Source: Clostridia bacterium
Lineage (GTDB): Bacteria > Bacillota > Clostridia > Oscillospirales > CAG-272
DNA length: 64,000 bases
Assembly (NCBI GenBank): GCA_017621655.1
Contig: JAGASS010000016.1
Coordinates: 1 to 64,000 of the forward strand
Direction of reading: 5' to 3'
Each line of letters begins with the position of its first letter. The stretch's first letter is position 1. The translations under genes were made by a program, and so were the position numbers. This document shows positions 4,185-13,135 of the stretch, piece by piece. The notes beneath the pieces were generated by a model. The model saw only the letters and a program-made list of their open reading frames with translations. It was not told the DNA's origin and searched no databases.

Positions 4185-4541
4185 GTGAAAAATATACTCA
4201 AATATTTAGCAGTCGGAGCTATTTCGGGATTTGTAAGCGGCTTTTTCGGAGCTGGCGGCGGTGTAGTGCTAATTTTTGCGCTATCGCTTCTTATAAAAAG
4301 CGGTCAAAAAAGAATATTTGCACAGACCTCTCTTATAACTGCGACGTTCGCTATCGTGTCGGCGGTCATATATCAGTTAAAGGGAAACCTTCCTTTTGAA
4401 AGCGCGATAAAATACGTTTTGCCTGCCGCGCTAGGCGGCGCACTTGGCGCGTTTTTGCTCGCAAAGCTAAAGCTGAAGCTCGTGAAGCGCGTTTTTGCGC
4501 TGACTGTAATACTTGGCGGACTAATTATGATATTCCGTTAA
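4185..4541 (+). CDS. TSUP (TauE/SafE) family membrane transporter, half-size
   Basis: Member of the TSUP family of anion (sulfite/organosulfonate type) transporters. Only 118 residues: one repeat unit of the usual two, with the characteristic N-terminal glycine-rich stretch (S-G-F-x-x-G-F-F-G-A-G-G-G) and four hydrophobic helices. Half-size members normally work as pairs or dimers, but no partner gene is adjacent. The start is GTG, 8 bases after AAGGGG. It converges on the BrxD-like gene and overlaps its end by 4 bases. Substrate unknown. Confidence 0.8.
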   Translation: MKNILKYLAVGAISGFVSGFFGAGGGVVLIFALSLLIKSGQKRIFAQTSLITATFAIVSAVIYQLKGNLPFESAIKYVLPAALGGALGAFLLAKLKLKLVKRVFALTVILGGLIMIFR

Positions 4542-5878
4542 AGCTCAATATCGGATAGGGTAAACGTCGGACGCTTTTCGGCGGCAGGAGCTTCTGCCTG
4601 CGACTGCGCTTCGGGTATCTTTCCAATTACGTCGGACGCCTTGATGCTCGGGTTTTGATAAAGAATATTAAGCATCGACATATAGTCGCGTATGATCTCA
4701 CGGGGAGTTATCATAACGTCCGCCCCTGCACGGGAAAGCGAGGACTTAAGGAAGCTTTCGAGGTCCTCATCGGTAACTCTCGGCTCCCAGGAAAAATGCT
4801 GACCGTGAAGCTTCGTTAAGCGCGTGATAAGCGCGTAAAGCTCGTTGTCCGAAAGACGGCGTAAACGTATTACGGGACCCATAAGGTCGCGGTAGCCGTC
4901 GTTACCGAAACGGCTGTCGGTAAGGCGCGAGCGAAGCGCCTCGTAGCTATAAAGCCCACGTCTTGTGTCCTCGAGAAACTGCGGAGTACCGCCCATGATT
5001 ATGTCAAGTCCCTTCGCCTTGCCCTGCAAGGTGTCGTTGAACATTGAAAGTATCTTTTCGTAGTTGTTCTCACGGGAAATGCGATTTGAGATCTTGTAGA
5101 GATTAACGCATTCGTCGATGAACACTACAAGCCCTTCGTATCCGATCTTGCGTCCGAATTCAGCCCAAAGCTTGATGTAATCATACCAGCTGTCATCGTC
5201 GATTATCGAGTTTACCGAAAGATCGCGGCGCGCCTCGGTCTTGGTCTCATATTCACCGCGGAGCCATCTTAGAGCATGGCTCTTTTTCTCGTCGTCGTTA
5301 TCGACTGACGCGCGGTAATATTCGGTTATAACGTAGGCAAAATCAAATCCGCCGACGCTGTTTTCAAGCTCACGCGTTACGTTGTAAACGCGCTTCGTGA
5401 CCTCAACGGTAAAGGACGGATCGTTCGGCGATATACCCTCCGACGCGACCTCGCTCATAAGCGAAGAAAGCCACTTTGATATGATGCCCGAAAGAGCACC
5501 GCCCTCGGGCGATGTCTTTGATGAGAGATTTCGTATCAGCTCACGGTAGGTCGCAATACCTGCGCCCTTACTTCCGCAAATGCGTCTTTCAGGGGAAAGA
5601 TCACAGTCTGCGGTAAGGAATCCGCGCTCAAGCGCGTAACCGCGCATAAGCTGCATAAGGAAGCTTTTACCGCTTCCGTATTTACCGATGAGAAAGCGCA
5701 TAGCGGCTCCGCCCTCGCTGACCTGATTCAGGTCGGAAAGGAGAGCTGCGATCTCGTCGTCGCGTCCTATTGCAATATATGGCGCACCGAGGCGCGGTAC
5801 GACTCCTGCCGAGATCGAGCGTATAAGAGATGATAGGATTCTCTTTGGCACCGTTACTTTTTCCGTGTTTTCAACCAT
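4538..5878 (-). CDS. BrxC/BrxD-like P-loop ATPase (DUF2791 type)
   Basis: P-loop ATPase resembling the BREX-associated BrxD / DUF2791 family. 446 residues; Walker A G65-K-Y-G-S-G-K-S72, Walker B L-V-V-F-I-D-E-C at 250-257, and the family's R-L-R-R-L-S-D-N-E-L-Y motif near residue 340. The start ATG is 8 bases after GGAGG, which lies inside the end of the TerB-N gene (25-base overlap), so the two are translationally coupled. In the family such ATPases sit with a TerB-N protein and commonly a DEAD/DEAH helicase; no helicase is encoded on either side here. A defence or DNA-metabolism role is inference. Confidence 0.8.
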   Translation of the reverse strand: MVENTEKVTVPKRILSSLIRSISAGVVPRLGAPYIAIGRDDEIAALLSDLNQVSEGGAAMRFLIGKYGSGKSFLMQLMRGYALERGFLTADCDLSPERRICGSKGAGIATYRELIRNLSSKTSPEGGALSGIISKWLSSLMSEVASEGISPNDPSFTVEVTKRVYNVTRELENSVGGFDFAYVITEYYRASVDNDDEKKSHALRWLRGEYETKTEARRDLSVNSIIDDDSWYDYIKLWAEFGRKIGYEGLVVFIDECVNLYKISNRISRENNYEKILSMFNDTLQGKAKGLDIIMGGTPQFLEDTRRGLYSYEALRSRLTDSRFGNDGYRDLMGPVIRLRRLSDNELYALITRLTKLHGQHFSWEPRVTDEDLESFLKSSLSRAGADVMITPREIIRDYMSMLNILYQNPSIKASDVIGKIPEAQSQAEAPAAEKRPTFTLSDIEL

Positions 5879-7626
5879 TGATCAATTTCCTCCATATAAT
5901 CGACGACGATATTAAATCCGTCGTCACCGTGCTCGACTGCGATATCGCCGAGCGTATCGTATAAGCGGTCATTGACCGCCTCGCAAAGGGCGTCGGGAAG
6001 TATTCCCATATTGTGTGAAAGCTCTATAAAGCCCTGCTTATCGTTGTTTATAAGACAAATAAGCGCCTTGGCAACCTCGCCGTCTCCGTCGTTTTCTTCA
6101 ACTTCTGTCGTCTTTTCGGGCGTAACTATCGTTTCTTCTTCAAGCTCGTATTCCTCAAGTCCATCGGTCAAAAGCTCGGTTGTTACCCAAGAATGCTCCT
6201 CGATATTCTTCGCATCCGAGAGGGAAAGCTCGTGGCTAATCGGCTCGTAAAGAACGTCGTATTCGGGAGCAGGAGCTTCCTTTGTCTGTTCCTTTTTCAG
6301 CTCCTTCTTATAGGGCGCAAAGTACTCCTCAATAGCGTGACGCAAGGGAAGAGCAAGATTCGGAGTATGGAAACGGCTTCTTATTCCGAGCATCGCGCGG
6401 ATGTTGTTTTCGGCGAACTTGATAGCATCGGTCACCGCGTAACGAAGCTCTGCAGAGCGTGAAACGGAGAGATAAGATACCTCAATTCTCCTCTTCACGC
6501 TATAAGCGCAGAGCGCTCCGACGAATGCGTCGCGCGTGACCTTAATGGGTGTCATTGCAACCTTGCCTATCGGCGCAAAGACCGTAAGGTGTTCGTTTTC
6601 TGCCTTCGTAAATGCGTAAATGAAAGCCGCCTTTATGTGTGTGTCGAAAAGCGCGCGGTTCTCGTCGGTTATGAACTTGCTGTTTCTGTAATCGTATAAT
6701 GACGCATACGAAAAGAGAGCAGTAGCGAACGGCGACCCGTCAATTGCGTCAAGACCTACGTAAAACTCCTTCAGCGAGCAGCTTCTTGCCGCCTCACCTG
6801 TCAAGGTGTAGGGAATATATCTGCCGTCAAGCTTGTGAATAAGGCAGTAGTCGCAGATCCATTCGCTAAGGTGACGGTCAAGCTTCGGAAACGATCTTCT
6901 GTAGCTTTCCCAAATGAAAACGAGAATATCAAGACCATTTTCGGGCGGAAGAAGATCGGGGACGTTAATTATCTCGTAAACGAGAAGAAGAATGTATGAA
7001 TAATCCGCCTTGATCGCTTCACCGCGTCTTATCTTGCTCCTGAAATAGAAGTAAAATTCAAGCTGTTTGCGCGTCATCTGAACGTATTGCGGCGTAAATG
7101 AAAAGAACGGCTCGTGCGGACATTCCTTGCCCTCGCGGTCAAAATATTTTACTGCGTTATTACGGAACTGCTCGTAGAACGAATATTTTGCAGGCCAAAG
7201 GCGGACCGTTACGCTCTCAATAAGCGGATTACGCTTGGGAGAATAGGAGAAAAGCGGCTCGTCGGAGGGGGAAAGCTCGATCGGCTCGTTTTTCTTTTCT
7301 TCCTTGTCTCCGTAAGCGGCGGCTGCAAAGGAAAGATGCTTTGCTTCGGCGGTCTTAAGCGCCGCCTTTGCTCTTTCAAGTCGGTCGGACGGTGGAGCGG
7401 AAGCAGTCGATACGGGGTCGGTATTCCTCATTTCGCTGAGGCGTTGATTCCAGCCGTCGTTTTTCGGTATTGGCGTACCCTTACGCTCGGACCGAGAATT
7501 TACCTGTATTTCGACTGTGTCGGTATCGTTCGAAAACACAGCGCCGAACTTCTTTTTTGGGAGCATTTCGTCGATGTCCCAGAAGTCGTCGTTAAGATCA
7601 AACGTGTTAAATCCCTTTTTCGACAT
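5854..7626 (-). CDS. TerB N-terminal domain protein
   Basis: 590-residue cytoplasmic protein with a TerB_N domain (about residues 140-340, beginning near R-L-W-P-A-K-Y and including the F-F-S-F-T-P-Q-Y-V-Q-M-T-R-K-Q-L-x-F-Y-F stretch), a low-complexity N-terminal 130 residues, and an acidic region before a helical C-terminal end. TerB_N proteins are known from tellurium-resistance-type stress loci and are repeatedly linked to BrxD-like ATPases. First gene of the pair; strong AAGGAGGAG site before ATG and a perfect promoter upstream. Biochemical role unknown. Confidence 0.8.
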   Translation of the reverse strand: MSKKGFNTFDLNDDFWDIDEMLPKKKFGAVFSNDTDTVEIQVNSRSERKGTPIPKNDGWNQRLSEMRNTDPVSTASAPPSDRLERAKAALKTAEAKHLSFAAAAYGDKEEKKNEPIELSPSDEPLFSYSPKRNPLIESVTVRLWPAKYSFYEQFRNNAVKYFDREGKECPHEPFFSFTPQYVQMTRKQLEFYFYFRSKIRRGEAIKADYSYILLLVYEIINVPDLLPPENGLDILVFIWESYRRSFPKLDRHLSEWICDYCLIHKLDGRYIPYTLTGEAARSCSLKEFYVGLDAIDGSPFATALFSYASLYDYRNSKFITDENRALFDTHIKAAFIYAFTKAENEHLTVFAPIGKVAMTPIKVTRDAFVGALCAYSVKRRIEVSYLSVSRSAELRYAVTDAIKFAENNIRAMLGIRSRFHTPNLALPLRHAIEEYFAPYKKELKKEQTKEAPAPEYDVLYEPISHELSLSDAKNIEEHSWVTTELLTDGLEEYELEEETIVTPEKTTEVEENDGDGEVAKALICLINNDKQGFIELSHNMGILPDALCEAVNDRLYDTLGDIAVEHGDDGFNIVVDYMEEIDQWLKTRKK

Positions 7627-7660
7627 ATCTCTCCTCCTTTCCCGTTCTTGGTATCATATA

Positions 7661-7689
7661 ATTATAGCACATAAATTATTGCGTGTCAA
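7661..7689 (-). promoter_or_regulatory. promoter of the TerB-N/BrxD-like pair
   Basis: Consensus TTGACA and TATAAT with a 17-base spacer on the minus strand, about 35 bases upstream of the start codon. No operator-like palindrome is seen, suggesting constitutive expression. Confidence 0.85.
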
Positions 7690-7787
7690 TTATTATGCCG
7701 ACAATTATATTGTTTCGTAAATATGCCATTTCGTAATCCATTTTAACGGATATTTCTACTTATTTCTTTAAGAAAAATGAAAAAGAT

Positions 7788-7811
7788 AAGACCTATCAAA
7801 CGATAGGTCTT
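7788..7811 (-). terminator. terminator of the four-helix membrane protein gene
   Basis: Ten-base-pair stem AAGACCTATC/GATAGGTCTT; on the minus strand it is followed by ATCTTTTTCATTTTT. The rest of the 260-base gap (7627-7887) holds only the TerB-N promoter and AT-rich sequence. Confidence 0.65.
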
Positions 7812-7887
7812 TCGTGTTTGTGATAAGTGTTTTTTGATAAAATGTTTCTTATAAAGGTAAGTGAAGGTGCGGCAAAGTCACACTACA

Positions 7888-8256
7888 TTATCTGCCTGCA
7901 ATCCATCTAATGAGAACGAGCAAGCAAAGTCCAATACCCAAGATAATCGCACCGACTGTTAGAATGGATGTGAGTTTAAGCATATAGCACACAACCGTAG
8001 CAACAAAGATAACAATTGCACTTACCCACCACAGGATAGTTAAATCGCGAAAGAAATTGCTTAATATAATTACTATGACAAATGCAGCAAGGAAACCACA
8101 GAACATAGCAGGGAATAATTGCTCCATAAGTGTGCCATCAAAACTACCTTTTCGCCAAGCAATGCCGCCAATTATAATAAAGAGTAGTGGACCCCATATA
8201 CACGAAACGATTGCAATGTCTTTTATAAGGGATTTTTTCTTATCACCGTTTGCCAT
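7888..8256 (-). CDS. hypothetical four-helix membrane protein
   Basis: 122-residue protein not recognised as a member of a named family. It shows a short charged N-terminus (K-K-K) and four predicted membrane helices at about 13-33, 47-67, 72-92 and 95-117, with W-R-K and F-F-R-D loops. AGGAG precedes the ATG and a plausible promoter lies upstream, so the gene is probably real and monocistronic. No conserved polar residues suggest transport or catalysis. Confidence 0.65.
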   Translation of the reverse strand: MANGDKKKSLIKDIAIVSCIWGPLLFIIIGGIAWRKGSFDGTLMEQLFPAMFCGFLAAFVIVIILSNFFRDLTILWWVSAIVIFVATVVCYMLKLTSILTVGAIILGIGLCLLVLIRWIAGR

Positions 8257-8297
8257 ATTGTTCTCCTAAAAGTAGATTTTGTTATAAAGGCAAACAT

Positions 8298-8326
8298 ATT
8301 GTAGCATATTATATCAATATTTTCAA
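8298..8326 (-). promoter_or_regulatory. promoter of the four-helix membrane protein gene
   Basis: TTGAAA and TACAAT with a 17-base spacer, about 45 bases before the start codon on the minus strand. Confidence 0.55.
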
Positions 8327-8430
8327 TAAGTTTAGCAAAATTTGTTTTATTTAAGAAGAAATAACCACCAATTCGGTAATGGAGTTGGTGCTTTGTTGTT
8401 TATGGGTATAATTATATTCATTAAAAAGAA

Positions 8431-11647: not shown

Positions 11648-13135
<1,488 letters not shown>

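Follow-up and report, generated by a model that had tools for sequence, protein, structure and literature searches.

The closest described relative of the genes studied here is Shango, a three-gene system made of a TerB protein, an ATPase and a helicase, with a 10-100-fold anti-phage effect in Pseudomonas (PMC10250203). Shango has been tested in Pseudomonas aeruginosa PA14 and in E. coli (PMC10250203 and an earlier report cited there); its three genes are contiguous in one operon, and its typical setting is a defence island. Defence catalogues depend on gene neighbourhood and take solitary components as decay or as non-defence genes. For example, a survey of defence genes in metagenome-assembled genomes read solitary genes as erosion or as non-defence roles (PMC10924106). 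Here we analysed a 64,000-nucleotide stretch of a Clostridia bacterium genome (the window; genome G000), in which a TerB protein and an ATPase gene lie together with no helicase gene adjoining them. Judged from their profile matches, these are the first two genes of the Shango trio, sngA and sngB.

The sngA-sngB locus

Both genes lie on the reverse strand and were defined by their open reading frames and profile matches. The first, sngA (5854-7626), encodes a TerB_N/TerB_C protein of 590 aa, and the second, sngB (4538-5878), a BrxC/BrxD-type AAA+ ATPase of 446 aa. SngA scored 145 bits with the PADLOC SngA profile and matched TerB_N and TerB_C above their curated cutoffs, as expected for the TerB protein of Shango. 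SngB scored 582 bits with PADLOC SngB and 532 bits with the Pfam family BrxC_BrxD (cutoff 22), and carries intact Walker A (residues 65-72) and Walker B (residues 253-256) motifs, as expected for the Shango ATPase. It did not classify as the BrxD of BREX, since the equivalog NF033438 gave 164.9 bits, below its cutoff of 350, and PglZ and PglX were not among the neighbours identified at the locus. The original prediction, made from the DNA alone, had named both protein families correctly but had not recognised that they belong to the published Shango trio.

The two genes overlap by 25 nt (5854-5878, reverse strand). A Shine-Dalgarno sequence, AGGAGG, precedes sngA (7633-7638, reverse strand), and sngB has its own GGAGG site (5889-5893, reverse strand) inside the 3' end of sngA, 10 nt 5' of the sngB ATG. 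The translational coupling that had been claimed for the pair is plausible, because both the overlap and the internal site are present. The pair is preceded by a sigma-70 type promoter (7661-7689, reverse strand) with a perfect TTGACA-N17-TATAAT and an extended TG, as strong as had been claimed. A perfect or near-perfect copy occupies the same position in the five congeners compared upstream of sngA (G001, G004, G005, G006 and G007), among which the flanking DNA differs. Note that such a promoter is ordinary for this genome, since the window holds eight perfect ones against 0.01 expected.

The flanks, which lie outside the system, are also as first described, with a TSUP gene facing the pair on one side and a putative membrane-protein gene on the other. 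The TSUP (TauE/SafE) gene (4185-4541, forward strand) is convergent with sngB and overlaps it by 4 bp. Its 118-aa product covers only the C-terminal half of PF01925. As G006, the sister genome, encodes an equally short product, this is probably a half-size TSUP and not a broken gene. TSUP also adjoins sngB in G004, G006 and G007. The second flanking gene, a 122-aa open reading frame (7888-8256, reverse strand), had no Pfam match. It is carried by an insertion of about 700 bp (7720-8430) that separates the S30AE terminator from the sngA promoter; G006 lacks this insertion, and there the terminator abuts the promoter.

A distant helicase gene and the arrangement in relatives

The original prediction had left two options, a stripped-down system or a helicase encoded elsewhere, and the second was borne out: 'without a helicase' is true of the locus, not of the genome. 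A search of G000 returned one strong, full-length SngC (G000:C15:26622-28793) on a different contig from the pair. This protein scored 792 bits as SngC against 407 bits as BrxHI, so the genome does hold the superfamily 2 helicase of Shango, with intact helicase motifs (TASGKT, DEVH, SAT and QRLGRSGRRG). With relaxed motif patterns, all four were present in 47/47 full-length SngC proteins. The three genes are single copies in G000. Since sngC lies outside the operon, and the three genes are not contiguous in G000, we file the system as a dispersed variant and not as canonical Shango.

Two side observations concern sngC itself. In the genus of the window it adjoins an FkbM-type methyltransferase gene at six compared loci (L105, L106, L107, L109, L110 and L111), in some of them lying directly downstream of that gene on the same strand. 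In G022 (L117:8913-11867) the open frame is 984 aa long, about 230 residues longer than in relatives, and its start is uncertain.

The source is a draft genome of 57 contigs, and a helicase gene truly located behind sngB could have been misassembled or binned away. This explanation has next to nothing left in its favour, however, because the order sngB, TSUP, uppP, ftsK lies inside a 165-kb contig and is common to G004, G006 and G007. Moreover, in G006, whose SngB is 97% identical to that of the window, the pair (at about 142 kb) and the helicase (at about 247 kb) lie about 102 kb apart along one 384,531-bp contig, so that assembly can hardly account for the separation. The loci are also separated in nearly complete chromosomes of cyanobacteria: Calothrix NIES-22 has sngA-sngB at 4.01 Mb and sngC at 1.54 Mb, and about 105 kb separates the two loci in Cylindrospermum NIES-4074. 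More generally, among the cyanobacteria (L096-L104) the Shango genes were linked in Cylindrospermum FACHB-282 and separated in Calothrix NIES-22, NIES-4074 and Scytonematopsis.

We compared two samples, 298 other genomes from across the phylum and 60 genomes of the family of the window. In the phylum sample SngB occurred in 17/298 genomes and SngC in the identical 17, with both genes adjacent on one strand in 17/17, which agrees with the earlier statement that such pairs commonly occur with a superfamily 2 helicase. In the family, SngB was present in 43/60 genomes; 40 had both proteins, and the genes were adjacent in 23 and separate in 17 (separate arrangement, family versus phylum sample, p=0.001). 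The original prediction had also named two findings that would speak against it, pairs always found with a helicase together with inactivity of this one, and a housekeeping position conserved across all relatives. The neighbourhood comparison gave neither: some pairs have no helicase beside them, and conservation of the position near ftsK and uppP stops at the genus.

In five split genomes alaS lies directly 3' of sngB, with gaps of about 9-113 bp. A replacement helicase behind sngB in the unlinked genomes was considered and rejected, the recurring gene of about 876 aa being alanyl-tRNA synthetase. The arrangement with alaS directly behind sngB and sngC elsewhere was seen in five genera (L129:10339-14442, L128, L130, L132 and L136). 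All three genes lie on different contigs in five relatives (L065, L066, L069, L072 and L094), with flanks long enough to rule out adjacency, and in G025 and L091 sngA is separate from sngB-sngC; L070 is ambiguous, with sngB and sngC at contig ends. The sisters G019 (linked) and G021 (split), together with the other scattered cases, indicate that the separation arose several times. A literature search of limited coverage returned no earlier report of a dispersed or split Shango. Note that L071, whose record is titled 'Candidatus Colimorpha enterica' (Bacteroidales at NCBI), falls in the clostridial genus of the window, perhaps through a mix-up of names. The sngA gene of L071 is broken into two open reading frames.

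Co-retention and selection

Among 98 relatives, 47 carried both SngB and SngC, three SngB only and two SngC only. Three of these five exceptions (G002, G003 and G008) are just 71-82% complete, whereas G028 and G047 are both 96% complete and carry, respectively, SngC without A/B and A/B without SngC. Linked genomes were then left out so that linkage could not account for the co-occurrence. In the family this left 17 genomes with both, three with SngB only (two of them 71-76% complete), two with SngC only and 15 with neither (Fisher p=1e-5). In support of this, a Pagel test on the alanyl-tRNA synthetase (AlaRS) tree favoured dependent over independent gain and loss (LR 19.3, p=7e-4), an outcome that also held when the less complete genomes were dropped.

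The SngB and SngC distance matrices of 14 unlinked family genomes correlated at 0.71, while the correlations with AlaRS were 0.63 for SngB and 0.32 for SngC; the partial correlation between SngB and SngC was 0.69 (p=0.0015). This agreement of the trees would back the reading of the genes as one system, in a supportive role only, because the species marker is a single gene, AlaRS, whose agreement with all three sng genes is modest. GuaB was tried as a second marker and rejected, since many relatives gave only a match of about 38% identity; close GuaB relatives (>70% identical) of the guaB gene in the window (11666-13132) occur only in part of the family.

The possibility that the pair and the helicase are each kept for unrelated reasons is suggested by the distance between the loci and by G028 and G047, which carry one part without the other. 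We regard it as very improbable, because gain and loss are coupled even with the linked genomes excluded, the SngB and SngC trees match in the unlinked genomes, and the phylum sample combines perfect coupling with adjacency.

Comparison of G000 with its two near relatives gave dN/dS values of 0.080-0.095 for SngA, 0.044-0.057 for SngB and 0.025-0.048 for SngC, alongside 0.074-0.086 for FtsK and 0.023 for GuaB. The three genes are under strong purifying selection, and the parts are therefore being maintained. This result, with the retention of the helicase alongside the pair across the family, counts against the 'stripped-down system' that the original prediction had allowed for. It also bears on the idea of an eroded remnant, with a pair that is decaying after the loss of its operon helicase and a distant helicase that is unrelated to it. 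The broken operon at the sngA-sngB locus and the published reading of solitary defence genes (PMC10924106) point that way, yet we give this idea almost no credence: the distant gene is SngC at 792 bits, the ATPase and helicase motifs are intact, all parts are under purifying selection, the promoter is kept across the genus, and co-retention contradicts decay.

Possible function and comparison with known systems

SngB was modelled (pLDDT 86) with an AAA+ fold, and its best structural match was archaeal ORC/Cdc6 (Z 16.8, 3.3 Å over 262 residues), with TnsC and HslU scoring lower. Sequence searches of the PDB with SngA and with SngB returned no significant relatives. Walker A is invariant in 31 SngB relatives save for one substitution. 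The protein ends in a variable linker followed by a short acidic-hydrophobic tail (SDIEL in the window), and 41/47 full-length proteins of relatives fit one tail pattern, which could represent a docking peptide. This C-terminus (window 4538-4560) is conserved in Clostridia, Paenibacillus and cyanobacteria, and is reminiscent of SSB C-terminal tips. The N-terminus of SngA is linker-rich and contains the peptide DDFWDI, and with a strict pattern an FWDI-like peptide was present in 33/43 family proteins. The last 80 or so residues of SngA were modelled as a winged-helix-like fold. Foldseek with the SngA model gave nothing below E 0.001; a second structure comparison listed winged-helix regulators on residues 506-590 with Z up to 7, a likeness that is weak on its own and may reflect merely a common arrangement.

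We consider it likely that these genes form a functional, dispersed Shango, in which the SngA-SngB pair encoded here acts with the distantly encoded helicase SngC in trans. SngA, with its TerB domains and a possible C-terminal winged helix, and the ORC/Cdc6/TnsC-like SngB would form a recognition and loading module that recruits or activates SngC on invading or aberrant DNA. SngC would then unwind or remodel this DNA, so that phage replication fails, and the tail peptides may serve as docking sites. The loader step and the joint action of the three proteins are what we infer from the computed features, and the anti-phage outcome would follow by analogy with the Shango systems tested in Pseudomonas and E. 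coli. That there is a functional three-part system is a firmer claim than what this system does.

We rank defence above housekeeping since these proteins resemble those of Shango most closely; the setting points the other way. The PADLOC profiles matched none of ten neighbouring proteins scanned around the two loci, so the typical defence-island setting was not seen; among the genes nearby are ftsK, uppP, guaB, pnp and one for a P-type ATPase. These core-type neighbours, the vegetative promoter and a prevalence far above that usual for Shango count against a defence reading. A resident role would be consistent with the high prevalence, the strong constraint and the core neighbours. In one version, which we entertain tentatively, the proteins constitute a near-core surveillance complex and not a mobile immunity cassette: two or three loci would evolve as one unit, and the ORC/Cdc6-like SngA-SngB would recruit SngC in trans through acidic-hydrophobic peptides such as the SngB tail.

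In another version the Shango proteins were co-opted in this family as a genome-maintenance machine, serving repair, replication-transcription conflicts or the control of integrated elements, and are not an immune system; such a machine would explain the core-gene setting and would have no need of an operon. It draws on the contrast between 43/60 family genomes and 17/298 others in the phylum, on dN/dS values like or below that of FtsK, on the ftsK-uppP neighbourhood seen in the genus, on alaS as the gene immediately following sngB in five other genomes, on the lack of PADLOC matches around the two loci, and on the conserved vegetative promoter. In addition, among solved structures YprA is nearest to SngC in sequence, and its family has a DNA-repair branch (PMC12458937). 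Nevertheless, we judge this co-option unlikely, though to be taken seriously. SngB is absent from 10/44 family genomes that are at least 90% complete; the AlaRS tree suggests repeated joint loss of unlinked copies; the gene trees agree poorly with that tree, which suggests horizontal transfer; and in genomes beyond the family these genes have the look of an accessory operon of sporadic occurrence. Such absences, coupled losses and discordant trees fit an accessory defence role, and a functional dispersed Shango remains the reading we prefer.

This Shango looks incomplete by neighbourhood, yet the genome contains every part, and the scattered genes are still kept and lost together. It gives a concrete example of a system that detection by neighbourhood would undercount. 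The results support SngC as a separable client of SngA-SngB, and the split lineages offer a natural genetic test of the parts of Shango that have to work together. In this family one can also ask whether an immune complex became resident core machinery.

Several known systems share parts with this one. YprA/MrfA and Lhr-type superfamily 2 helicases resemble SngC, through YprA as its best solved sequence relative and a weak WH_Lhr match, but the similarity is partial and concerns the helicase core. ORC/Cdc6 and TnsC share the fold of the SngB model (Z 13-17), suggesting a role as a DNA-bound loader or regulator, although only the fold is common to them and SngB, which has no significant sequence relatives in the PDB. 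With BREX there is common ground as well, since SngB belongs to the Pfam family of BrxC/BrxD and SngC is related to BrxHI; however, the SngB and SngC profiles give clearly better scores for both proteins, and the BrxD equivalog reached 165 bits against a cutoff of 350. Shango is the closest: all three protein families are present, with high scores for SngB and SngC, and sngA lies directly upstream of sngB. Unlike Shango as described, here sngC lies outside the operon, on a different contig in G000 and about 102 kb distant in G006; the loci sit in core-type neighbourhoods and not in a defence hotspot, and the system occurs in most members of the family and not sporadically. The arrangement thus appears to be a variant of the known Shango system, scattered rather than stripped down.
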